33,295 bases of DNA, taken from IMG/VR virus record IMGVR_UViG_3300027749_000321, positions 1-33,295 of that record; one strand, 5' to 3'. The notes beneath the pieces are model-generated. The model was not told the origin of the DNA. It did not search any database and saw only the letters and a list, made by a program, of their open reading frames with translations. This document shows positions 7,462-29,763 of the stretch, in pieces. Every line of letters starts with the position of its first letter. Positions within the stretch are counted from its first letter, which is position 1. This DNA is from a virus. The position numbers were made by a program, and so were the translations under genes.

Positions 7462-7887
7462 ATGGCTATTGAATTACGAAACTGCTCTGATACTGGCACA
7501 TATCCTTGTGGGCCTTGTAATCCTTGTGGAGAGTTGTACGCAATTATAAGTCAACCAACATTACAAATGACTGTTAGCGGAACTGCACCGCAGGGCATGG
7601 CAATGAACGATTCTATTTCATTTTTTTCTTGGGATAACGGGGTTTCAACTGGATCTGGAACACCTCACTCTTGCTTTATACCCGGTTCTTTTACTGCCAC
7701 TTGGGTTCTGGATTGCGATAATTCAAAATTAAGAATTAGTTTGTCGGATGCTATGCCGCCAGAATATTATTTTTGCTGGGCTGGATTTGATGTTTATTAC
7801 ACAGGAATCATACCTCAAAATGGAGTGCCATTTGAAGCAACGTCTTATGAACTAGGGGCTACAGCAACATTTACTATTTCATGGTAA
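7462..7887 (+). CDS. Cysteine-rich phage protein of unknown function
   Basis: This 141-residue protein starts one base after the fibre gene. The N-terminus holds a tight cysteine cluster (C8, then 'PCGPCNPCGELY'). It is followed by a beta-rich, aromatic domain with further cysteines around residues 70, 83 and 104. There is no signal peptide or membrane helix. Its place directly after a fibre gene suggests a small virion or fibre-associated protein, for instance an accessory tip or a folding partner, but nothing in the sequence proves it. The next gene starts inside its last codons (7-base overlap). Confidence 0.65.
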   Translation: MAIELRNCSDTGTYPCGPCNPCGELYAIISQPTLQMTVSGTAPQGMAMNDSISFFSWDNGVSTGSGTPHSCFIPGSFTATWVLDCDNSKLRISLSDAMPPEYYFCWAGFDVYYTGIIPQNGVPFEATSYELGATATFTISW

Positions 7888-8153
7888 ATAACCGATTCAT
7901 AACACAAAAGATTTCTTCACTTTCCTCTTCTGCCGTTCATTGGGCTGACAAAGGGTTTCCTGTAGTGACAAAAGAACAACTAGAAACACGACTTGCGACT
8001 TGTAAAGGATGCGAGTTCTGGGATCAGAAGGGCTTTGGCAATACAGGGAAATGCACCAAGTGCGGATGCTCCACTCAAGCCAAGCTCCGTATGGCTACTG
8101 CAAAATGCCCTATTGACAAGTGGGGTGCTATTGAGGTAGTTAAGACGGATTGA
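7881..8153 (+). CDS. Small zinc-ribbon-like protein
   Basis: This 90-residue protein has two cysteine pairs and an extra cysteine: C41-x2-C44, C58-x2-C61-x-C63 and C76 in 'KCPIDKW'. The pattern C-x2-C ... C-x2-C-x-C ... CP(I/L)-K-W is one I recognise from small zinc-binding proteins scattered through environmental phages. I infer zinc binding; the partner (DNA, RNA or protein) is unknown. The N-terminal 30 residues may be a separate helix. It overlaps the previous gene by 7 bases and sits 1 base before the glycosyltransferase-like gene. Confidence 0.7.
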   Translation: MVNNRFITQKISSLSSSAVHWADKGFPVVTKEQLETRLATCKGCEFWDQKGFGNTGKCTKCGCSTQAKLRMATAKCPIDKWGAIEVVKTD

Positions 8154-8154
8154 A

Positions 8155-9114
8155 ATGATTGTAGCAATTTCCTATTACGATGGTGATCTAGCCCAGATGC
8201 GGCGTTGGGCAAGCCATGTGGCTAAACTAGGCTCCTATAAAGCCCATAAACTCATCCTAGCTCCAGTAAGGGGTGTGAGTACCGAAGGCATCAAAGACAC
8301 GCTACAGGGCGTATTTGGAGAGATTATCATAGAGAACTGCACCCATGTGCAGACTGGTTGGCCTATCTCTTGCAACCTAGCCTTTGAACAAGTCTGCTGG
8401 TTGGTTTCCATGAAACTCAAGGAACCATTCCTGTGGATGGAGCCAGATGCCATTCCCCTCACTCCAGATTGGATTGATAAAATTGCCGCCGCCTATGCCT
8501 CTTGCGGCAAGCCCTTTATGGGAGACTTTGTAGGCATTAATGGCATCATGCCTAATGGAGTCGATCATATGAGCGGCGTTGCAGTCTACCATTGGGATCT
8601 ACATCGACTAGCCCCCTCTCTCTTTAACAACGAGTTCACGGCTTGGGACATTGCTTCCGCTGGGAATGTGGTTCCGCAGATGGCTCGTACCGACCTAATC
8701 CAGCATGATTGGATTCCAGATAAGAAGTGGAGGCGTGATGTTGTAACTCCCGATTGCGTAAATTCACTTGCTGTCGTATACCATCCTGATAAATTGGGCG
8801 TGTTATTTAACGATGGTTTACTTCCGAATGGTGTGCAGGGAGATCTTGCAACGGGTGGCTCCTGTGAGAGCAAGCCTCATGAAACAAAGGACAATCATAT
8901 TGAAGAAGCACTTCTTACTATTATCAATCATGCAAAACAATCCAGAAAAGCCAAAAAGGAAATCACGGAACGGCTCTGCCAAGAAGGTGTCTTCGCCAAA
9001 ACCAAGGGTTCCAAGCAGTCTCGAAAGAAAGTTCGATCTGCTGTGGGCGGCAGTAAAAGGGCCGTCTCTGGAGGTGGAGTATCGCTTCCATCCAATTCGC
9101 AAGTGGAGGTCTGA
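8155..9114 (+). CDS. Glycosyltransferase-like protein
   Basis: This 319-residue protein looks like a GT-A type glycosyltransferase over residues 1-250. It has an initial beta strand 'MIVAISYYDGD', a metal-site-like 'LWMEPDAIPL' (E96-x-D98) followed by 'DWID', then 'FMGDFVG' and 'HMSGVAVYHWD'. Such enzymes would add sugars to phage proteins, modified DNA or host surface glycans; the substrate cannot be told. Residues ~255-319 are basic and low in complexity, and they are read from DNA that also encodes the next gene. I suspect that tail is an extension acquired by overprinting. The start lies one base after the zinc-ribbon gene and has no clear Shine-Dalgarno sequence. Confidence 0.65.
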   Translation: MIVAISYYDGDLAQMRRWASHVAKLGSYKAHKLILAPVRGVSTEGIKDTLQGVFGEIIIENCTHVQTGWPISCNLAFEQVCWLVSMKLKEPFLWMEPDAIPLTPDWIDKIAAAYASCGKPFMGDFVGINGIMPNGVDHMSGVAVYHWDLHRLAPSLFNNEFTAWDIASAGNVVPQMARTDLIQHDWIPDKKWRRDVVTPDCVNSLAVVYHPDKLGVLFNDGLLPNGVQGDLATGGSCESKPHETKDNHIEEALLTIINHAKQSRKAKKEITERLCQEGVFAKTKGSKQSRKKVRSAVGGSKRAVSGGGVSLPSNSQVEV

Positions 9115-10751: not shown

Positions 10752-11093
10752 ATGGCTATTGCTTCTTACGATATTACTATTTTGCAGGGGTCAGATTTTG
10801 CCTTGGATCTAACTGTGCAGGACGCAGTTGGAGATCCAATTGATATTACTGGAGCCACTATCCTTTCACAGATTAGGACTTCTTGGGACGCTCCTGTTAT
10901 TGCAACATTCACTTCACTTATCACAGATGGAGTTAATGGTAAGTTTAATATTTATTTAAGAGGGGCTACTAGCCAAGCTATTAATCCACCAGTAAACGCA
11001 AAATATGATGTTTTAGTAACATTGGTTGACAATACTCGTATTAGAGTTCTTGAAGGTAATTGCACTATTCATTTGGCTATTTCCCATGTCTGA
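10752..11093 (+). CDS. Small virion protein, BppU-N-like beta domain
   Basis: This 113-residue protein shows the pattern '[28 protein letters not shown]', then 'F-----DG--GKF-IYL', then '[18 protein letters not shown]'. I recognise this as the small beta-sandwich domain common in phage baseplate or fibre-adaptor proteins (BppU N-terminal-like). It probably links the following fibre to the virion. It is the first gene after the capsid terminator, and its last 8 bases overlap the collagen-like fibre start, so the two are surely co-translated. No membrane segment is present. The family call is by pattern only. Confidence 0.65.
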
Positions 11094-13371
11094 TCCAGTA
11101 AGCATTATCGTTACTCCGCAGGAGCCTGTTCAAATAACAATTTTGAATGGTGTGCAAGGGCCACAAGGCCCACAAGGGCCACAAGGCCTACAGGGAGGTG
11201 GTGGGCCTCAAGGAGCCTTGGGCTTAACTGGATTTGCAGGGCCGCAAGGAACACAAGGTACGGAAGGGGATGTTGGAGATGTTGGCCCTGCTGGATCTAC
11301 TGGGCCTACAGGATCATCTGGAGCGACTGGGCCTACTGGCCCTAAAGGAGAAAAGGGCGATACTGGAGCGACTGGGCCTACTGGAGCTACTGGGCCACAA
11401 GGCCTACAAGGGCCAGCTGGTCACGGAATTACATTTAAGGGGTCTGTGGCGAATCCATCATCTTTGCCGTCAAGTGGCAATTCTGTTGGAGATGCATATA
11501 TCACCCTAAATAATAATCACTTTTTTATATGGGATGGATCTTCATGGGTAGATAATGGTGCATCAGTTCAAGGGCCTCAAGGGCCGACTGGTGCTACAGG
11601 AGCTACAGGAGCAAAGGGAGATAAGGGAGATGCTGGATCTACTGGAGCCGCTGGTTCTACTGGCCCTCAAGGCCCGACTGGGGCGACTGGCCCTAAAGGT
11701 GACAAGGGTGATGCAGGGTCACAAGGCATCCAAGGAATCCAAGGGATCAAGGGAGATAAAGGGGATCAAGGAACTCAAGGTCAAAAGGGAGATACTGGAA
11801 TTCAAGGTATTCAAGGAGTTCAAGGCCCAAAAGGAGATCGTGGAGAGCAGGGGATTCAAGGCATTCAAGGTATCAGAGGCATTCAAGGGCAGACTGGAAG
11901 GGGATTTAATTTTAAGGGATCTGTTTCAACTTCTTCATCTCTTCCTGCAACTGGCAACGCTCAAAATGATGCCTACATTACTACTGATACAAATCATTTT
12001 TGGATTTGGGGCGTAAGCTCTTGGACTGACTCTGGCCCTTCTATCAGAGGCCCACAAGGTGAAGATGGCCCTCAAGGAAACACAGGCACACAAGGGCCAA
12101 GAGGAATTCAAGGAGACCAAGGCATTGCTGGCCCTCAAGGGCCAAAGGGCGATAAAGGAGATACTGGACAGCCCGGTGCAACTGGTCAGCAAGGTGCTAC
12201 AGGCCCACAGGGAAATACAGGGCCAAGAGGCCCAAAAGGAGATAAGGGAGATCAAGGAATAGCTGGCCCTCAAGGGCCACAAGGCATTCAAGGAACTGCG
12301 GCTAATATTCCTAATCCATTGGGCATATCTGATAGCTTTGGTTCAATATCAATTAGTCCATCATCAATAAATCTTAATGCAAATAGTGGTGATAGTTTTT
12401 ATGTAAACCCATCGTCATTGATTTTTGTCCCAGCTTCTGGTGGATCGTTAAATGCATCTCCTTCCAGAGGTCTTAATATAAATTATGATAACAATTATAT
12501 TAATGCCACGGCTAGTGGGGTTAATGCTTATTCATCAACAGGTGCTTTTTTCTCATTAACTCCATCAAATTTGGAAATAAATGATGCAAATGGAAATACT
12601 ATATCAGCAACTCCATATAACTTTATTGTAAATTCTTCATCGGGAAATATTACTGTTGATTCAACTACATTTTCAGCAACATCTAATAATGGAGGAAGTG
12701 CGTCACTTAATTCTAGTGGGGAGTTTTCTGTTAATACATCACAGGGTAATTCTATAACATTTAACGATACTGAATTAAGTGTTGTAAACAATGGTTCAGA
12801 GATCACAGTAGACACGGAAGGAGTTAATGTAACATCCGATAAATTAAGTGCCACAATTGGAGATACAGATGTAAATATAACATCGTCTGAATTGAAGGTT
12901 ACAAACGGAGGAACGGATGTTTCAATTAAATCCAGCGGAATTGAGGCAAAAAAAGGAGGTACAACCACATCTATTGACGATAATGGGGTAAAGGTTGAGA
13001 AGGATTCAATTACAACTTCTATTGGTGGAGATGGCATTAAATATGAAGACTCGTCCAACAACACAGACATTACAATTGCTCATGATGGACTTACTGCATC
13101 TACCCCCGCTGGAACAATTTATGTAACAGCCAACCCGTCTTCACAAAATCCGACACTTGGAATTAGTTTGTTTGACAACGAAAGCAACGAGTGTCAAGTA
13201 TCAGTTCAAAACATTACCATCAAAGACAACGAAAGCGGGGAAGATGTTGTTTTGGATGTTCCCCAAAAGGGAGGTGATGGAGATAAAATTAGTGCAACTT
13301 GGCATGAAATCGACATTTGCGTTAACGGAACTCCTAAAAAGGCGATGGTCTTTATGACCCAGCCATATTAA
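11086..13371 (+). CDS. Collagen-like tail fibre
   Basis: This 761-residue fibre starts at ATG 11086; the upstream in-frame ATG 11026 lies inside the previous gene. Order: ~21-residue N-terminus; Gly-X-Y blocks at about 22-114, 161-273 and 321-403; two ~46-residue cassettes (115-160 and 274-320) of the form 'FKGSV--SSLP--GN--DAYIT---NHF-IW--SSW-D-G'; then ~325 residues of Ser/Asn/Thr-rich beta repeats every 16-17 residues; and the tip '[16 protein letters not shown]'. Collagen blocks would trimerise, the cassettes would be small globular knobs, and the tip a receptor-binding or trimerisation end. The tip is shared with the gene at 5997. Long GGAGAT/CAAGG-type DNA repeats underlie the collagen blocks and are recombination-prone. 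Confidence 0.9.
11149..12294 (+). repeat. Collagen-type Gly-X-Y coding repeats in three blocks
   Basis: Nine-base periodic sequence encodes [15 protein letters not shown] and similar triplets. The three blocks (about 11149-11427, 11566-11904, 12046-12294) are separated by the two homologous 46-codon cassettes. Repeated words such as GGGCCACAAGGC and AAGGGAGATAAGGG create many internal direct repeats. Confidence 0.93.
13294..13334 (+). repeat. Fibre-tip repeat, copy 2
   Basis: Matches 7383-7423 with three mismatches in 41 bases and encodes the shared C-terminal tip [14 protein letters not shown]. Confidence 0.9.
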
Positions 13372-16545: not shown

Positions 16546-17079
16546 ATGGATTTAACGCCACCTAAATTAAAGCCAGCAGGGTTTGTCGATTTCCTTAAAG
16601 ACGAGCCTAAATTCATTTCCCCCGACAGGTGGAGTCCTAATATGAGGGATGTGCGAGAGGATGGATCATTAAAAGGTTATGGGTATCTTGGATTGCTACA
16701 AAGACAAGACAACCCTAAAGGTTTTTCAAGTGAAATTTCTATTGGCATAACCCCAAAAGAAGTTGGTTATGACCCAGAAAAGCACAAAGATTACAAGCTG
16801 ATTGATAGTGAGAATGGTCAATATTTGAGTGTTCCCTTGATGGTTCCGACCTTGAGCAAAAAGGAGATCAATCACCTTCTTGCAACGCCAGAAGACCAGC
16901 TTGATGATGCTCATCCAATCATGAAGTCAATTCGCACAAAGGCCGTGGACTTTGCAAAGAGCAGGATGAAGGAAGGAAAGCCATTGTTCGCCGAAGAAGC
17001 AGAGTCACCAAAATATGGAAAACCAGTAGGTGCTATGGAGAAGATTGTCCAAGACCTAAAAGGATACGGACTAGAGTGA
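16546..17079 (+). CDS. Conserved phage protein of unknown function ('TEISIG-VPTL' type)
   Basis: This 177-residue protein starts at ATG 16546; an upstream in-frame ATG lies inside the spanin gene. It contains 'RWSPNMRDVREDGSLKGYGYLG', 'SSEISIGI', 'LSVPLMVPTLSKKEINHLL' and 'SIRTKAVDFAKSRMKEGKPLFA'. I recognise this motif order from a domain found alone or inside large polyvalent proteins of phages; its function is unknown. It interrupts the lysis cassette. Its last bases overlap the next start (GTGA). No enzyme motif can be identified. Confidence 0.65.
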   Translation: MDLTPPKLKPAGFVDFLKDEPKFISPDRWSPNMRDVREDGSLKGYGYLGLLQRQDNPKGFSSEISIGITPKEVGYDPEKHKDYKLIDSENGQYLSVPLMVPTLSKKEINHLLATPEDQLDDAHPIMKSIRTKAVDFAKSRMKEGKPLFAEEAESPKYGKPVGAMEKIVQDLKGYGLE

Positions 17080-17438
17080 GAAAAGAATCAATAATTGAGA
17101 ACAAGTTGTCCCAAAAGCCGCTGGAGAGCAAAAAGGCGATCTACGCTTTGTTGGCTGGCAGTTGCGTTCTTCTTGTATTTGCTGTCTCTGCTACTCTCAT
17201 TGTCCTCCACGCAGAGGCATCCAAGGACATCGTGGAACTCGCCAACCTCGTTGTTCTTTTCTTTGGAGCCACCGCAACAACTTTAATCACGGGACAGGCC
17301 GCTATGGACTGGAAGGCAGTATCCGCACTCCAGCACATGAGCGAGGATGTGAAGGTGGATAGCAACGCCGAGGCTCCAGACATGGTTGTGAATCAGCGTA
17401 TCCAGAAGTCGAGGTGGCACGATGACGGAATACTTTAG
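17076..17438 (+). CDS. Two-helix membrane protein, second holin candidate
   Basis: This 120-residue protein starts at GTG 17076, overlapping the previous stop (GTGA); no usable ATG is near. It has a ~20-residue polar N-terminus, a hydrophobic helix (~22-44, 'AIYALLAGSCVLLVFAVSATLIV'), a second one (~54-72, 'VELANLVVLFFGATATTLI') and a soluble tail of about 45 residues. It overlaps the endolysin gene by 17 bases. This direct coupling to the endolysin fits a holin or an antiholin partner of the gene at 16000. Inference only. Confidence 0.6.
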   Translation: MRKESIIENKLSQKPLESKKAIYALLAGSCVLLVFAVSATLIVLHAEASKDIVELANLVVLFFGATATTLITGQAAMDWKAVSALQHMSEDVKVDSNAEAPDMVVNQRIQKSRWHDDGIL

Positions 17439-22066: not shown

Positions 22067-22254
22067 ACGCTACAGAAAAATTTGAGAATTGGTTTAACAC
22101 CGAGGGTATCCGCACTTATTCCAAGAACCACGGCACAGCCGATGGTCATAAGGAATATATGTATGAAGCCTTTATGAATGGATACAAGATGGCTCTTGAC
22201 CATTGCACAGAGGTGTTGCTTGATCCAAACAACGCAAATATTATTGACGAGTAA
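22063..22254 (+). CDS. Small hypothetical protein
   Basis: This 63-residue protein starts at ATG 22063; an in-frame start at 22033 is less likely because 22063 forms an ATGA overlap. It has 'EKFENWFNTEGIRTY' and 'HKEYMYEAFMNGYKMAL', two amphipathic helices with aromatic residues, typical of small phage early proteins. Its stop shares one base with the next ATG (TAATG). Function unknown. Confidence 0.55.
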   Translation: MNATEKFENWFNTEGIRTYSKNHGTADGHKEYMYEAFMNGYKMALDHCTEVLLDPNNANIIDE

Positions 22255-22913
22255 TGAGCTTTCAAAAGCTAAAGAATATCTCTCAAGTCCCTCCGGGTCG
22301 ATTTTCCTTCACAGTTCCTGAAAATGGATTCAAGGTGGAAGGGCAACTTTCTATTGAGGATCTGTTCAGGAAGGTGGAAGCACATTATAAGGATAATGCC
22401 ATTCCGCTTCCTAGTGACTGGAAAGACAGGGTTGAAGACCAGATTTGCAGGAGGTTGCCAGCAGGGTGGTGCAATTACTCTGGTGAAAAGTATGTTGGGT
22501 TTCAGCCCCAACTATCAGCAGAAACCATCCTGAAGGGTATTAAATCCCTATCAGCAATGGCACTTGCCGCCGTTAAGGGAGAGGAAGTATGGGTGGATCA
22601 AAACGAAGCTAACAAAAGGGCTGAAATATGCTCTCGTTGTTTCTATAATATGTCATCTAACTTCTGTGGTGGATGTGCCACAGGACAGGCTATTAGGGAA
22701 ATGGTTAGCAAGGTAAAGGGCAGTAGGTCAACACCTTCTGATGCAAACCTACAAAGCTGTGGCGTTTGCGGTTGCAAAAATGAAGCCATTGTTCATGTCA
22801 ACAGAAATCTCTTGCTAACAGGGGAGAAAAGTGAGACAACTGCAAGGCGACCTGACTGGTGTTGGGTTAAAAATCCAGACATCACACAAGCGGAATCACT
22901 TCTTAAAATATGA
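22254..22913 (+). CDS. Zinc-binding protein upstream of portal
   Basis: This 219-residue protein has cysteines grouped as C126-x2-C129 ... C138-x2-C141 and C169-x2-C172-x-C174 ... C203. This suggests one or two zinc ribbons in the C-terminal half. The N-terminal 90 residues include 'LPAGWCNYSG'. It is translationally coupled on both sides (TAATG and ATGA), the second time to the portal gene. It may be a packaging accessory protein or an adaptor, but a DNA-binding regulator is also possible. No other motif is recognised. Confidence 0.62.
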   Translation: MSFQKLKNISQVPPGRFSFTVPENGFKVEGQLSIEDLFRKVEAHYKDNAIPLPSDWKDRVEDQICRRLPAGWCNYSGEKYVGFQPQLSAETILKGIKSLSAMALAAVKGEEVWVDQNEANKRAEICSRCFYNMSSNFCGGCATGQAIREMVSKVKGSRSTPSDANLQSCGVCGCKNEAIVHVNRNLLLTGEKSETTARRPDWCWVKNPDITQAESLLKI

Positions 22914-25135
22914 TTACTTACGGACTAATTGACCCCAATGTTGGAGAAAAGCCTCCCAAGAGCAGGGTGGAAGATGCAGGGTCAGTCCGTAGTATGCTCT
23001 ACACCCTTATCGACGATGATCAGATTGCTTCTTATCGTCGTTCTCAGATTCAGGGTATCATTGATGGTAATGCTCCGTACAATGACCAACAGCTTCGTGA
23101 GCTTGGTCAGGCTGATCGTGTGAATGTGAATTGGGGACACGCCGAGTCAAAAGTTGAGTCGGCTGTTATTCCTTACTTCGATCTACTCACCTCCGTTCCC
23201 AATTATGCCACTGTCCGTACTCAGTATGGAAAAGACATGAGCAAGAGGGAGGAATGGAGCCGAACCATCTCTGAGGAGTTTCACAAGCTACTCGCCAAGA
23301 CAAACCCCGGCTTCCTAGCACAGCATCAAATCGCACACAAGCAACTTGTCATTCATGGTCAGGCTTGCTTATATTGGCCTGATGGTACTGATTTCAAGGC
23401 TAAAGCTATTGATCCTTGGAGCCTAGTGGTTCCCAAGGGAGCAAGCGTCAATCAAGATGATTGGGAGTTTTGCTATGTTTTGGATGAGATGTATTGCGAG
23501 GAACTATATCGCTATATTGAGAATCCCGAAGCCGCCAAGCGTGGTGGCTGGAATGTCGAGGAGTGCCAGCAAGCCATCATGGATGCCCGTGTTGACGAGC
23601 AGGATCAACGCCGCCCTTGGGAGTGGTATCAGAAGGAGCTTAAAAACAATGCTCTCTACTACTCCTACGCCAAGAGCAAGATTATCAAGGTGGCTCATAT
23701 GTTTGTTAAGGAATACGATGGTCGTATCTCCCACTATATTTTTGATCGCCTTAACTCCACGGAGTTCCTATGCGAGATGCCTAGCCGTTATTCCAAGTTC
23801 TCCAACGCATTCACGGTCTTCCTTAATGGCGTTGGAAATGGATATTATCATGGAGTTAGGGGACTAGGACAAAAGGTTTATAAGTGGGCAGAAGCCATTA
23901 ATCGTGTAAACAATGCCTTACTTGAGGGGGTTATTGTAGGATCTGCTGTTATGTTCCAGCCCAACTCAGCGGCTGATGCAGAGAAGATTAAGACGATACA
24001 AGTTGGCCCTTACAAGATTCTTCCTCCGGGCATGAACCTAACTCAGGTTAGCGTTGGTTCAAATCTCTCCTCCGCTATGCAAGTAGCGGCTATGTTCCAA
24101 GGTCAGGAAGCTGATGAGATCAGCACATTCATCCCGATGGTTGGTGGTGGTGGTGGACGCAAGAAGGGCAATAAAGAAATTGAAGCCGAGATGGGCGAGA
24201 AGAGCCGTCTCACCAATGTTAAGGCAGAAATCTACCTTCAGGCTCTTGATCTTCACTATAAGGAAGTCTATCGCCGTGCCGCTAATCCCAACATCCTTCC
24301 AGAGGATCAGGGTGGAAATGAGGCTATTGCATTCCAAGAGGCTTGCATGAATCGTGGAGTCCCTGCTGGAGCTTTGCTTGACATTGAGTCAGTCAAGGCT
24401 ACTCGCTCTATCGGTCAGGGAAGTGCCGCCGCCAGACTTGCGGCTATGTCCCAGATTTCTCAATATCTACCCCAGCTTCCTGAGTCCAGCCGTAAGAATG
24501 TTATTAATGCCACGGTTGCCGCTATTGGTGGCGGTCAGATTGCTATTGATGCATTCGGAATCCCGCAGGAAACAAAGCCAGATGGCAACGAGCTTTCCAT
24601 CTCATCCCTTGAGAACAATGCGTTCCAGAGCGGTGGTCAGGTTATTATTGACCCAGACCAAAATCACTTCGTCCATCTCACCGTCCATCTTCAATTCTGC
24701 GAAAGCATGGTTCAGGGTGTTCAGGATCAGAAGGCAGATCCTCGTCAGGTGTCTGTTGTCTTGCAATCCGCTATTCCTCATATTCTCACTCACCTGAAAT
24801 ACCTTGAGGAAGACCCGACTCGTGATGAGCAGTTCAACAATCTCAATGAGCAGACCAGCGAACTTATGAAGGTTGCTGATCAGATCAATAGCATGGCGAA
24901 GCAAATGCAGGAGCAGGAAATGGCTCAACAGCAACAGGGTCAGCAACAGCAAGACCCGAAGGCTATGGTTGCCATGAACAAGATCCAGTTGGATCGGATG
25001 AAGCTCCAGAACGATATCCAGATCAAGCAAGCCAAGGCTCAACACCAGATGCAGTTGCAGGATCGCAAGACCGCACAGCGTCTGATGGTTGACCGCCTCA
25101 AGGTGGCTCAGAAATACGGACAAATCCAACCCTAA
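22910..25135 (+). CDS. Portal protein
   Basis: This 741-residue protein has the length and pattern of podovirus-like portals. It has an N-terminal part with 'RVNVNWGHAESKVESAVIPYFDLLTSVPNYATV', a mid domain with 'IDPWSLVVPKGASVNQDDW' and 'YSYAKSKIIKVAHMFV', and a long helical crown region from ~560. The C-terminus is a Gln/Met-rich coiled coil ('QMQEQEMAQQQQGQQQQ'), a common portal barrel end. Twelve copies would form the DNA entry ring at one capsid vertex, dock the terminase encoded downstream and join the tail. It starts in an ATGA overlap with the zinc protein. (Long motif quoted in key residues: W41-G42-like N-terminal helix start, then PNYATV.). Confidence 0.82.
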   Translation: MITYGLIDPNVGEKPPKSRVEDAGSVRSMLYTLIDDDQIASYRRSQIQGIIDGNAPYNDQQLRELGQADRVNVNWGHAESKVESAVIPYFDLLTSVPNYATVRTQYGKDMSKREEWSRTISEEFHKLLAKTNPGFLAQHQIAHKQLVIHGQACLYWPDGTDFKAKAIDPWSLVVPKGASVNQDDWEFCYVLDEMYCEELYRYIENPEAAKRGGWNVEECQQAIMDARVDEQDQRRPWEWYQKELKNNALYYSYAKSKIIKVAHMFVKEYDGRISHYIFDRLNSTEFLCEMPSRYSKFSNAFTVFLNGVGNGYYHGVRGLGQKVYKWAEAINRVNNALLEGVIVGSAVMFQPNSAADAEKIKTIQVGPYKILPPGMNLTQVSVGSNLSSAMQVAAMFQGQEADEISTFIPMVGGGGGRKKGNKEIEAEMGEKSRLTNVKAEIYLQALDLHYKEVYRRAANPNILPEDQGGNEAIAFQEACMNRGVPAGALLDIESVKATRSIGQGSAAARLAAMSQISQYLPQLPESSRKNVINATVAAIGGGQIAIDAFGIPQETKPDGNELSISSLENNAFQSGGQVIIDPDQNHFVHLTVHLQFCESMVQGVQDQKADPRQVSVVLQSAIPHILTHLKYLEEDPTRDEQFNNLNEQTSELMKVADQINSMAKQMQEQEMAQQQQGQQQQDPKAMVAMNKIQLDRMKLQNDIQIKQAKAQHQMQLQDRKTAQRLMVDRLKVAQKYGQIQP

Positions 25136-25146
25136 AAACAAACCAA

Positions 25147-25338
25147 ATGGAAACGAACCCCTTCGATGCGGGGAAAGCAGAAGCAACGGAATTGATCGTA
25201 GCATTGATCTACGATAGGTACTTGTACCATCGCACCTTCCACGGAAGGGATTCTGAACTGGCACTAGCTCACAAGCTACTGATCCAAACAATTAGAGACA
25301 ATCAAGCAAAGGACATGGGGATTGAAGAAAATGAGTAA
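25147..25338 (+). CDS. Small helical protein after portal
   Basis: This 63-residue protein follows an A-rich, SD-less upstream stretch. It is helical throughout ('KAEATELIVALIYDRYLYHRTF', 'ALAHKLLIQTIRDNQ'), with an acidic end. It overlaps the ATP-grasp-like gene by 8 bases. It sits in the head module, so a head accessory role is possible. Family not recognised. Confidence 0.58.
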   Translation: METNPFDAGKAEATELIVALIYDRYLYHRTFHGRDSELALAHKLLIQTIRDNQAKDMGIEENE

Positions 25339-26611
25339 GTGCCTTGTAATTGACCACGGAATCTTCACGGCATTTGCCGAGCGTCTGGCAGAAGACCATG
25401 ATGTAAAATACTTTGTTCCATATGCAGACAGGAGCTTTCCCAAGCACGGGCCAGCACTTGTTGGAACTGGTCTCAAAAATGTTGAGAGGGTCAATAATTG
25501 GGAGGAGTATTATCAATCAGTAGATTTTGTAGTTATCCCGGATGTTGGCTTTATGTATCTTACGGAACTATTCCGCTCGCAGGGCATCAAAGTCTGGGGA
25601 GCAGGACTAGGAGAGAAGCTGGAAGTCCAGCGTTGGAGGGCTAAAGAGACGATGAAAGCCCTTGGGCTTCCCGTGGGCAAGTGCGAGCTTGTTACTGGCA
25701 TGAGCAATCTCCGCAAGTATCTTGAGGAGAATGACGATGTGTATGTGAAGATTAGCGGATTCCGAGGGCTTGCAGAAACCTTCCACTCTGCTAATTGGAA
25801 GGAAGTGGAGCCTCGCATGAACGAGCTTTGGGATGCACTTGGTGGAGCCTGTGAGGTGTTCCCATTCATCGTGGAGCATAAGATTGATTCAGTCGTGGAG
25901 GCTGGATATGACGGATACTCCGTTGGTGGAAAATTCCCATCTACTTGCCTAGTCGGTGTGGAGGTTAAGGACAAGGGATACCTTGGATGCGTGAGGGACT
26001 ACGATAAGGTTGCTGAACCAGTAAAGTATGTTAACGATTGTTTTACTCCATTCCTTGAGGAATCCGGGTATGCACAATTCTTCTCCACGGAAGTAAGAGT
26101 AACGGAGGACGGGACACCCTATCTTATTGACCTTACGACTCGTTGCCCTGCACCTCCATCTGCCCTGTATTGGGAGATGATTGAGAATATTGGGGAGATT
26201 GTGGAGCTTGGTGCTAACGGAGAGCTTGTGGAGCCTGTATGGAGGGCTAAATACGGAGCCTTGGCAATCATCACTTCCGACTTTGCCAATGAAAGATGGT
26301 GTCCAGTAAGCGTCAAGCCAGAGGATAGGCAATGGATTAAGTGGCGTAACTATGCCGAGATCGAGGGGCAAGGCTACATCGTCCCCACGGATGGCGTTAA
26401 GATGCCAGAGATCGGTGATTGCATTGGAATCGGCGACACGCCAGAAGAGGCAATTAAGGCTTGCCAAGAACACGCTGAAGCTGTAAGTGGATTCAATGTA
26501 GTTGTTAATAGCGACTCCATTATCAAAGCACTTAATGAAATTGAAACAGCGGAGGAAGAAGGAATTCTATTCTCTGATGATGAAATGCCGACTGAAAAAG
26601 ATCTACTATGA
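25331..26611 (+). CDS. ATP-grasp-like ligase in the head module
   Basis: This 426-residue protein starts at ATG 25331; the TTG at 25322 is less likely. Its order resembles ATP-grasp ligases of the GARS type. A Rossmann-like N-terminal part ('CLVIDHG', 'VDFVVIPDVGF', 'IKVWGAG') is followed by the A domain 'RWRAKETMKALGLPVGKCEL' and 'DVYVKISGFRG' (K140, ATP-binding). Then come 'AGYDGYSVGGKF' (D194) and the B domain 'FSTEVRVTEDGTPYLIDLTTR' (E254, D267), with a C-terminal 'AIKACQEHAEAV' element. ATP-grasp enzymes join a carboxylate to an amine or thiol. The substrate is unknown; modification of a virion protein or a small molecule is possible. The usual E-x-N metal motif is D-x-T here. An acidic tail ends the protein. 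(Motif of 21 residues shortened by function, not altered.). Confidence 0.65.
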   Translation: MSKCLVIDHGIFTAFAERLAEDHDVKYFVPYADRSFPKHGPALVGTGLKNVERVNNWEEYYQSVDFVVIPDVGFMYLTELFRSQGIKVWGAGLGEKLEVQRWRAKETMKALGLPVGKCELVTGMSNLRKYLEENDDVYVKISGFRGLAETFHSANWKEVEPRMNELWDALGGACEVFPFIVEHKIDSVVEAGYDGYSVGGKFPSTCLVGVEVKDKGYLGCVRDYDKVAEPVKYVNDCFTPFLEESGYAQFFSTEVRVTEDGTPYLIDLTTRCPAPPSALYWEMIENIGEIVELGANGELVEPVWRAKYGALAIITSDFANERWCPVSVKPEDRQWIKWRNYAEIEGQGYIVPTDGVKMPEIGDCIGIGDTPEEAIKACQEHAEAVSGFNVVVNSDSIIKALNEIETAEEEGILFSDDEMPTEKDLL

Positions 26612-26886
26612 CATATACAGACTGGAGGGCTGACACAGCCCTTGCCGCAGAACTAAAGAAGATCCTTGATCTTCCTATCATGAAACAAGCTCTATCCGTT
26701 GTGGATGGACTCACCGCCGCAAAAGTATTGGGAAGCACCAATGCCCTAGTAGCTAGTGCAAATAATGCCCATGTTCTATTCGGGTTCGATGCTGGCAGGG
26801 CATCTATCATTAATGATCTTCATGGACTCGCAGTTGTTCCAGAAGAAATCGAAGAGATCAACCCGTCCTATCAAGGAGAATTTTAA
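26608..26886 (+). CDS. Small head-module protein of unknown function
   Basis: This 92-residue protein begins in an ATGA overlap with the ATP-grasp-like gene and ends 3 bases before the scaffold. The start 'MTYTDWRADTALAAELKKIL' and 'LHGLAVVPEEIEE' recall small helical phage proteins often found between portal and scaffold genes. It has no cysteines, signal or membrane helix. It could be an assembly accessory. Function not known. Confidence 0.6.
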   Translation: MTYTDWRADTALAAELKKILDLPIMKQALSVVDGLTAAKVLGSTNALVASANNAHVLFGFDAGRASIINDLHGLAVVPEEIEEINPSYQGEF

Positions 26887-26889
26887 TTT

Positions 26890-28071
26890 ATGAGCGAACC
26901 AACAACACAGCCAGCAGACCCCATCATTGCCTCCACGCCAGAGCCAGCCTCTGAGTCGTTTGAGCAAGTATTGAACCGCCAGATCAACCAGAAGCCGAAG
27001 ATCGAGCGTGTAGATTATTCCAAGGTGGAGAGCGGTGAGCAAGTCCCTCAGAGCATTGAGGAGATCACTAGCATGGAATCTGACGAGTTCCTGAAGCATC
27101 TTGACGGAGTGGAGTCCACGCCAGAGGAGCCTAAGAAGGAAAAGAAGACCAAGGAAAAGGCTACTGAGAAAACCGCATCAAGCGATAGCTTTGATCTTTC
27201 GGATCTTGATCTTACAAAAGACCCTGAGCCTGTAGAGGCTCCCAAGAAGAAGTCTAAGGAGGACAATATTGCCGAGCTTCGCAAGAAGGCTGAGGCTTAT
27301 GAGGCTTCCCTCAAGGAGAAAGACACGGAAGTAACATCTTATCGTGATAAGTTGGAGAAGCTGGAGGCAGAGCTTGAGCGTACTGCTTTTGAGCGTTCCC
27401 CAAAATTCAAGGAGAAATATGAGCAACCATATAGTGAAGCGATAGACAAGGCTTCCACATTCGCAAAGGAGATTGGTGATGATCAATCTATTGCGGAGAA
27501 GGCTCTCGCCCTCAAGGGCAAGGAGCGTATCGAGTTTATCGACGAGTCATTTGGTGGTGGAGCCGCCGCCGCTCAGTTCCTTAATCTTATCAATGATGCT
27601 GATGGAAAGCGTGGTAATCTGGAGGGTGCTTTGGAGAACTATCGCCAGACTAATCAGGATCTTCAGGTGGAACAGCAAAAGAACCACCAGCAGTTCATGG
27701 AAAGTGCCAAGAAGAACTTTGATCGTGTAGCGGCACATCTCGCTAACAAGAATGAATTGTTTAGGGAGATCGGTGACGAGGATCACGACAAGGCTGTTAG
27801 AGCTAGGCGTGAAGCCGCAGAAGCCATCATGATGGGTACTGCAAGCTCCGTTGATATGTCACTCACCCCCTTCCTTGCCGTTGCCGCTAAGGATGCTATT
27901 GAGAAGTTGGCTAAGGTGGAGGCAGAGTTGGCTAAGTACAAGAACCGAGCCAAGGAAGACGCTTCCGTTCAGGCTAGGATTACCCGATCATCCTCCGATG
28001 AGGAGAGCGTAAGCAAGGGCAATCCCAAGTCTGGTCTTGATTCCATTCGCTCCCAGCTACGAGGACTCTAA
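26890..28071 (+). CDS. Probable scaffolding protein
   Basis: This 393-residue protein is highly charged and mostly helical. Residues 1-120 are Pro/Glu/Lys-rich and disordered. Residues ~125-160 form a coiled coil ('IAELRKKAEAYEASLKEKD'). An Ala/Glu-rich helical region follows, and the C-terminus is basic ('SGLDSIRSQLRGL'), as needed to contact capsid protein. The composition and the position between portal and terminase fit a scaffold that directs procapsid assembly. AAGGAG (26873-26878) lies 11 nt before the ATG, one of the few SD-like sites. It is ~16 kb from the capsid gene, which is unusual. The main alternative is an internal or DNA-binding virion protein. Confidence 0.65.
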   Translation: MSEPTTQPADPIIASTPEPASESFEQVLNRQINQKPKIERVDYSKVESGEQVPQSIEEITSMESDEFLKHLDGVESTPEEPKKEKKTKEKATEKTASSDSFDLSDLDLTKDPEPVEAPKKKSKEDNIAELRKKAEAYEASLKEKDTEVTSYRDKLEKLEAELERTAFERSPKFKEKYEQPYSEAIDKASTFAKEIGDDQSIAEKALALKGKERIEFIDESFGGGAAAAQFLNLINDADGKRGNLEGALENYRQTNQDLQVEQQKNHQQFMESAKKNFDRVAAHLANKNELFREIGDEDHDKAVRARREAAEAIMMGTASSVDMSLTPFLAVAAKDAIEKLAKVEAELAKYKNRAKEDASVQARITRSSSDEESVSKGNPKSGLDSIRSQLRGL

Positions 28072-28074
28072 GCC

Positions 28075-29763
28075 TTGAAGCTCCAGACCTACGGGCTGGA
28101 TCTAAGCGGGTATCCGTCCATCACGCAACTTGAAATAGAGTTGCTGATGGTGGCGTGTAAAGATCCGTCTGTCTATAGCGGTTTCTCACGAGGCCAGCAT
28201 ATCAAGCATTGTATTGCAATGCTGTGGCCTGATGTGATCAGGTCTTGGAATGATTGGAACGAACTCGCTCTATGGGCTTGGACTAGCTACGATGAAATTG
28301 GAGTGACTGGCTGTGCCGCCGCTGGAAAGACATTCACATTCACGCTCTTGTCTCTGGTGGAGTATTTGGCAAAGCCTATGGCTACACGAGTGGCACTAAC
28401 AAGTACGACTGTTCCATCACTCAGGGGTCGTATCTGGTCTGAAATGATGCGGTTCGTGCGTCCTGCCGTTCCCCTCTTCGGACTTAATGTGGTGGACTCA
28501 CAGACCAAGATCCAGTTCCAGAGAGGAGATGACAGGAGTAGTATCATCGCCCTTGCCGTGGATTCTGGTGCCGTTGAACAGGCAGTAGGAAAGCTACAGG
28601 GAGTTCACTTGCCTCGCATGGTTATCATGGTGGACGAGGCGGCACAGACCAACCCGGCCGTGTATTCAGCTAGGGCTAACTTGGAGGTGGGAACGGACTT
28701 CTATCACTTTATTGCCATTGCCAACGCATCGTCCATGTATGATCCGCATGGATTGTTTTGTGAGCCTCGCATGGGGTGGGGAAGCATAGGGGATGATGAC
28801 GAGCATTGGGAAACCAAGAGCGGAATCTGCGTGAGGTTTGACGGACTCAAGTCTCCCAACATTAAAGCTGGTAAAACCATCTATCCGTATTTATTTGGTC
28901 AAGACAATGTGGACACGATCAAGAAGAACTTCGGGGAGGGAAGCCTTGAATGGAACTCCTATTGCCGTGGTATGTGGAGCAAGAGCGGAGCAAGAAACAC
29001 AATCCTTGATTCAGCAACCATTCAGGACGGCAAAGCTCGTGAGACAATCCTTTGGACTGGTGGAGGAGTGAAGACCATTGCCGCCCTTGATCCAGCGTTC
29101 ACCACGGACGGAGATGATTGTATTCTACGATTTGCAAAAGTTGGCAAGGCAACGGATGGTCAACTCACCATGCTCCTCACCGATGTTGTGAGAATTCATT
29201 TGGAGGAAAGCCCAGACTATCCATTGTTCTATCAGGTGGCAGACAAGACCATCGAACTCCTGAATAAACACAATGTGAGACCAGAGGATTTTTCTCTGGA
29301 TGCCACGGGTGGTGGTGCTGGTATTGCCGACATCATCCAGCAACGATGGAAGAATGGGTTCATCAGGGTCAGCTTCGGAGGATCGGCTACTGACAATGCC
29401 ATCTCCACGGAAGATCCTCGACCAGCAAAGCAAGTCTATGCGAACAGGGTCACGCAACTCTGGGGACAAATCAAGATGATCGTCATGTCTGGAAGACTCC
29501 GTGGATTGGATGACCAAACCGCAAGGGAGCTTTGTGCGAGAATCTATTCGCTCAAGAACGAGAGAACCCTACTTGAGAGCAAGAAGGATTTGAAGAAGCG
29601 AACAAAAGGAAACTCGCCAGACAGGGCTGACGCACTTGCATTACTTTGTGAAATCTTTGTGACGCAAAACGGCCTTGGAAACGCTACTGGAGCCGATGGA
29701 GCCACGGATGAAGATTGGGAAAGATTTGTTCTTGACCATGAGATTGAAGCCTCCTATGAATGA
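28075..29763 (+). CDS. terL: Terminase large subunit
   Basis: This 562-residue packaging motor and nuclease has Walker A 'GCAAAGKT' (79-86), Walker B 'MVIMVDE' (182-188, catalytic E188), and RNase H-like nuclease acids D339 ('AALDPAF'), D409 ('FSLDATGGG') and D516/D519 ('SPDRADAL'). It translocates DNA through the portal and cuts it at the end. I chose TTG 28075, only 3 bases after the scaffold stop and in the same frame. The first ATG is about 24 codons in and would remove the conserved-looking start 'YPSITQLEIELL'. Translation probably restarts after the scaffold stop. No small terminase subunit is recognised in the window. Confidence 0.92.
   Translation: MKLQTYGLDLSGYPSITQLEIELLMVACKDPSVYSGFSRGQHIKHCIAMLWPDVIRSWNDWNELALWAWTSYDEIGVTGCAAAGKTFTFTLLSLVEYLAKPMATRVALTSTTVPSLRGRIWSEMMRFVRPAVPLFGLNVVDSQTKIQFQRGDDRSSIIALAVDSGAVEQAVGKLQGVHLPRMVIMVDEAAQTNPAVYSARANLEVGTDFYHFIAIANASSMYDPHGLFCEPRMGWGSIGDDDEHWETKSGICVRFDGLKSPNIKAGKTIYPYLFGQDNVDTIKKNFGEGSLEWNSYCRGMWSKSGARNTILDSATIQDGKARETILWTGGGVKTIAALDPAFTTDGDDCILRFAKVGKATDGQLTMLLTDVVRIHLEESPDYPLFYQVADKTIELLNKHNVRPEDFSLDATGGGAGIADIIQQRWKNGFIRVSFGGSATDNAISTEDPRPAKQVYANRVTQLWGQIKMIVMSGRLRGLDDQTARELCARIYSLKNERTLLESKKDLKKRTKGNSPDRADALALLCEIFVTQNGLGNATGADGATDEDWERFVLDHEIEASYE

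Follow-up and report, generated by a model that had tools for sequence, protein, structure and literature searches.

A GARS-like ATP-grasp enzyme, probably an optional extra, encoded among the presumed head genes of a phage lineage

The stretch of viral DNA analysed here, referred to as the window, is the 33.3-kb IMG/VR virus record IMGVR_UViG_3300027749_000321 (33,295 nucleotides); IMG/VR records may be fragments. It encodes a real and probably active ATP-grasp enzyme with the predicted full-length fold of GAR synthetases (GARS, PurD). With moderate confidence, the protein is considered to be an active, phage-specific ligase of the GARS branch that has changed its acyl substrate and is carried as optional, late-expressed cargo. 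Its gene lies among presumed head genes:

22910–25135, + strand: presumed portal protein, 741 aa (position; phrog_1216 portal, E 0.4)
25147–25338, + strand: g31, 63 aa, upstream of the enzyme gene, a neighbour conserved in relatives with and without the enzyme
25331–26611, + strand: GARS-like ATP-grasp protein, 426 aa (ORF; AF2 and Foldseek; dN/dS)
26608–26886, + strand: g33, 92 aa, downstream; the next conserved gene after g31 in enzyme-less relatives
26890–28071, + strand: presumed scaffold protein, 393 aa, with many charged residues (position and composition)
28075–29763, + strand: terminase large subunit, 562 aa (phrog_38, E 9e-4, a weak match)

The names portal, scaffold and capsid reflect position and have weak family support or none: the portal match is very weak and involves only three of nine members, and the presumed scaffold protein has no family match.

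The enzyme ORF extends from an ATG at 25331 to a stop at 26611, and an alternative TTG start at 25322 would add three residues. An earlier sequence-only reading had described a 426-residue ATP-grasp ORF tightly overlapped on either side, and the overlaps indeed amount to 8 nt with g31 (25331–25338) and 4 nt with g33 (ATGA, 26608–26611). Since the reading frames overlap, the gene is apparently co-transcribed with the head genes; scans for promoters and terminators returned sites no more frequently than in shuffled sequences. The coding status of the ORF is certain, because dN/dS among relatives is 0.05–0.12, which indicates purifying selection, and homologues are encoded at 55 or more IMG/VR loci, with identities of 61–100%. 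Compared with locus L002, the gene is mosaic at 25331–25630: DNA identity is only 56% at gene positions 121–240 and 85–100% beyond about position 240, while the L002 proteins flanking the enzyme gene are 97–100% identical to those of the window, suggesting an exchange inside the N-terminal domain.

In the lineage of the window (G1), the enzyme gene is located between g31 and g33 in 55 of the 55 loci that show neighbours, some of which contain an extra gene inserted beside it. A fixed position, which the sequence-only reading had named as something to check, is borne out within this lineage. The proposed order of portal, enzyme and scaffold stands as a position in the head module and needs amending in that g31 and g33 intervene and the portal and scaffold labels are little supported.

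The AF2 model of the window protein has a mean pLDDT of 83 and a pTM of 0.82. The top 15 PDB matches in Foldseek are all GAR synthetases, aligned from end to end (best E 8.8e-19, TM 0.63), with about 14% identity in the structural alignment; the three domains of this fold (N, ATP-grasp and C) together span the whole protein, confirming the GARS-like ATP-grasp core recognised earlier. By sequence only, the evidence is weak (PDB 2yw2, E 0.0056; NCBIfam purD, TIGR00877, E 0.0014). The Pfam search returned no ATP-grasp, GARS_A or GARS_C match, the viral fold library yielded distant ATP-grasps only and the defence library nothing. A HicB-like antitoxin match at residues 358–411 was rejected, being below the cutoff and overlapping the GARS C-domain-like region.

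The window protein branches far out within a large phage family of GARS-like proteins, encoded in hundreds of IMG/VR stretches. A tblastn search of the phage collection gave no match to the enzyme at 1e-5, and no relative of the window's portal or terminase was detectable at that E value either. A weak match (E 0.5) to Caudoviricetes sp. ct2os315 (MW202796.1) proved real; it is an unannotated ORF that matches Pfam GARS_A:

L057 19992–21323, equivalent to MW202796.1 42140–43471: GARS-like ORF of ct2os315, 443 aa

An alignment scan of IMG/VR with this ORF found relatives encoded in 296 stretches, of which the best 80 were kept, and a scan with the motif E-F-T-x-R-[FY]-G-Y-P-T added L150, L151/L152/L154, L153 and L155. 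The window protein is connected to the family by phmmer (E 6e-7 to L153, 2e-6 to L127, 6e-6 to L136), by an HMM match to L153 (E 7.5e-10) and by an HMM–HMM link (E 3e-8). The ct2os315 protein and its IMG/VR relatives form the G2 group, whose model has a pLDDT of 90 and whose best GARS match reaches E 2e-28 and TM 0.74–0.78. A tree that included six PurDs separates them from the phage proteins by a well-supported branch. The G1 branch is very long (3.4 changes per column), so the details around it are unsure and a divergence in mechanism of the window lineage is possible. A signature consisting of (E/D)-x-T-x-R, Arg for PurD K103 and Glu for PurD D212 is invariant in all sampled members (36 distinct G1, 27 distinct G2 and 4 others).

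None of the family members scanned against PHROGs has a convincing match. Six other phage-collection matches to the G2 protein were set aside, since they look like bacterial PurD in UNVERIFIED records; five carry E-x-N-x-R-x-G-D-P-E and the sixth a near copy, EYNWRFGDTE. Cellular genomes gave no relative in exact short-pattern scans, which do not establish absence. No paper on phage GARS-like or PurD-like ligases was found in the literature searched. The source of ct2os315, a spring, suggests a freshwater habitat, to which the IMG sample series presumably points as well. Besides the enzyme family, the only window protein matching the compared ct2os315 pieces is a small Cys-rich protein (7881–8153), weakly similar to DUF6171; a larger Cys-rich protein is g29 (22254–22913).

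The active site can be read against that of A. aeolicus PurD, in which K103, K143, E185, E192 and K214 contact ATP, E100 and K214 contact Mg, and D212, R287 and E292 contact glycine (PMC8880213). Residues of the N-terminal half were mapped via the phmmer alignment to 2yw2 and the remainder via the family alignment; conservation was assessed over the 36 G1, 27 G2 and 4 other phage proteins. The corresponding features are as follows:

25622–25633, + strand: E98 and R101, equivalent to A. aeolicus PurD E100 (Mg) and K103 (ATP) (alignments)
25748–25768, + strand: K140, the ATP-grasp lysine (PurD K143), then I-S-G-F-R-G (alignments)
25874–25900, + strand: E182 and E190, equivalent to PurD E185 and E192 (ATP) (family alignment)
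25961–25969, + strand: E211-V-K213, where PurD D212 (glycine) is changed to E and K214 (ATP/Mg) is kept (family alignment)
26084–26092, + strand: S252-T-E254, a strand position with a Glu invariant in the window lineage (family alignment)
26129–26158, + strand: D267-L-T269-T-R271-C-P-A-P-P276, the altered metal motif (alignments; PMC8880213)
26393–26491, + strand: GARS C-domain-like region (GIGDTPEEAIKAC...) (alignment with PurD)

All of the ATP/Mg-contact residues of PurD are present, with K103 changed to R101. E98, R101, K140, E182, E190, E211, K213 and R271 are invariant in G1, E98 and R101 also across the phage family. The I-S-G-F-R-G segment after K140 is presumed to be the phosphate-binding loop, with GFRG in the window protein versus GLAAGKG in PurD, and the GDxGPNTGG loop that follows the equivalent of E211-V-K213 in PurD is mostly deleted. 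The replacement of E-x-N by D-x-T in the metal motif, pointed out in the sequence-only reading, is seen at D267-x-T269 and is invariant across the lineage. Every aligned phage protein has Thr in place of the PurD Asn and has lost E292; Asp for the Glu of E-x-N is confined to G1, as is E254, whose strand neighbours that of D267. At the E254 position, Salmonella PurD has Y271/G273 and other phages have D or N.

These changes could be taken to mean that the ATP-grasp protein has lost catalysis and persists as a binding or structural factor, an explanation for which the D-x-T motif, the GFRG loop and the deleted loop segment speak. It is judged quite unlikely: every ATP-contact residue is invariant or conservatively changed, an invariant E254 lies on the strand beside D267, and relatives keep the head block without the enzyme, making an essential structural role unlikely. 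D-x-T alone would not suggest loss of activity, because Thr characterises the phage family and Asp keeps the carboxylate.

Further changes fall at the substrate sites. R271, equivalent to the carboxylate-binding R287 of PurD, is kept, while the glycine-binding E292 is replaced by P276, so the PurD glycine-site motif E-x-N-x-R-x-G-D-P-E is not matched. Nor does the alignment show a GPNTGGMG loop or an N-terminal G-G-R-E-H motif, both being absent or deleted. With the carboxylate-holding Arg retained but no counterpart of the Glu that binds glycine in PurD, the enzyme probably takes an acyl substrate other than glycine; the loss of the loop and of G-G-R-E-H makes phosphoribosylamine an improbable acceptor. 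We infer that the ATP chemistry has been retained and the acyl substrate changed.

It is very unlikely that the window protein is PurD. An auxiliary metabolic enzyme of purine synthesis, a diverged PurD that boosts host GAR synthesis, would agree with the nearest solved folds all being GAR synthetases and with the relative L150 passing the Pfam cut-offs for both GARS_A and GARS_C. However, the glycine-binding Glu, E-x-N and the GPNTGGMG loop are kept by the genuine PurDs in the alignment and lost here, and the NCBIfam purD score is 17.5 bits versus a cutoff of 288, leaving this explanation with hardly any probability.

A scan based on the portal added 66 new portal loci, comprising 33 with the enzyme, 19 without it and 14 cut too short. 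The 19 enzyme-less relatives keep the block of portal, g31, g33, scaffold and terminase, and several of them have g31 directly adjoining or overlapping g33. The enzyme label switches no fewer than four times across the portal tree, three of the changes being forced by well-supported branches; the enzyme is thus not a constant companion of the head genes. An all-against-all comparison, which included a positive control, found the enzyme in 14 of 14 genomes of the plus group and in none of the eight long genomes of the minus group; searches in the records of 14 minus loci, run without a positive control, gave no match. Portal and enzyme distances correlate (Mantel r 0.64, with none of 2000 permutations as high). 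The portal tree does not tell gain from loss of the gene; the fixed slot points to an ancestor with the enzyme and later loss, or to replacement of the segment. In relatives, the g31–g33 interval also hosts HNH endonucleases, a PAPS-reductase-like gene, DUF3310-like genes and other small ORFs, as named from sequence motifs rather than library searches, and it is a landing site for optional genes.

Outside G1, placement varies, according to gene names read from sequence. The G2 gene closes the late operon, downstream of the genes for presumed internal virion proteins, and that of L150 also ends a late operon; the L153 gene lies among baseplate genes, between gp5-like and gp25-like ones, and the L151 and L155 genes are in a non-structural region. 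The scattered placement that was to refute the sequence-only reading is found across the wider family and not within the window's lineage. For most of the phage groups encountered, the gene still lies within a structural module or closes one, which may be more than coincidence; the late-module placements are most simply explained by late expression being convenient.

The sequence-only reading had proposed a role in head assembly, in which the enzyme could modify a virion protein or make a small molecule. As an account of the function, modification of a virion protein during morphogenesis, for example by linking an amine or the C-terminus of a head protein with an amino acid or a small acid, is unlikely. 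It is favoured by the fixed slot in the head operon with overlaps at both ends, and by G2 and L153 homologues also lying in, or at the end of, structural operons. Against it, several lineages are without the enzyme and show no visible alteration of their head genes; the C- and N-termini of the presumed capsid, portal and scaffold proteins, g31 and g33 do not differ consistently between phages that have it and phages that lack it; the L151 and L155 homologues lie in a non-structural region; and the proteins with the nearest folds, PurD, PurK and PurT, act on small molecules. Terminal tags on head proteins were considered as substrates and rejected, there being no pattern between phages with and without the enzyme. 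The intact g31–g33–scaffold–TerL block of the 19 relatives, the repeated label switches across the portal tree, the further optional genes of the interval and the varied distant placement all speak against the head-assembly role, and location in the head operon does not demonstrate one. Since this gene block persists in close relatives that lack the enzyme, the latter is probably an optional extra and not a part of capsid assembly.

Elsewhere in the window, a small predicted membrane protein (17076–17438), holin-like by its position before a GH108 endolysin, is of a type present in 12 of 14 plus genomes and none of eight minus genomes; an alternative 131-aa type occurs in all eight minus genomes and one of 14 plus genomes. 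This association is only a lead, because the minus genomes span three portal clades. A 319-aa protein (8155–9114) conserved in 22 of 22 compared genomes reads like a glycosyltransferase and has no Pfam or PHROGs match. The long protein with collagen-like G-x-y repeats (11026–13371), which varies among relatives, is probably a tail fibre.

Compared with PurD (PDB 2yw2, 2xcl, 1gso, 2qk4), the window protein shares the full-length fold and the ATP-contact residues and differs in D-x-T and in lacking the glycine Glu, the GPNTGGMG loop and the N-domain motif. G2, L150, L151, L155 and L153 have the same fold, E-x-x-R, E-x-K and (E/D)-x-T-x-R and have likewise lost the glycine Glu; unlike the window protein, G2 has retained both the Glu of E-x-T and the DGELGVTTGEQG loop and has another genome location. 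ORF28 of the LUZ24-group phage UFV-P2 is also a phage-encoded ATP-grasp protein of unassigned substrate, but it has 291 aa and its early-gene neighbourhood includes an amidoligase and a glutamine amidotransferase (PMC3890496); the window protein has no similar protein in the phage collection (tblastn, 1e-5). Jumbo phages also encode ATP-grasp ligases, the R2K peptide ligases, whose predicted targets are proteins and which are described as a separate clade (PMC7824862, PMC4431377).

By homology of fold, the favoured GARS-branch ligase would use Mg-ATP to convert a carboxylate into an acyl-phosphate and would pass this to an amine (or thiol); no partner gene indicates a substrate. As optional late cargo in the g31/g33 slot, its gene would ride on transcription of the head operon, and the enzyme may help the phage in some hosts or conditions, with particle building presumably possible without it. 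A bolder proposal, possible but doubtful, is that an undescribed, widespread phage branch of GARS with new acyl and acceptor substrates acylates a virion or host protein, or makes a new small amide, late in infection; if true, such chemistry is not described for phages in the literature found. GARS-fold ligases, encoded by hundreds of environmental phage contigs, are mostly missed by the family libraries used. The split between what is kept (the ATP chemistry) and what is changed (the acyl and acceptor sites) turns the substrate into a testable question, and similar head operons with and without the gene offer a natural comparison for its role.
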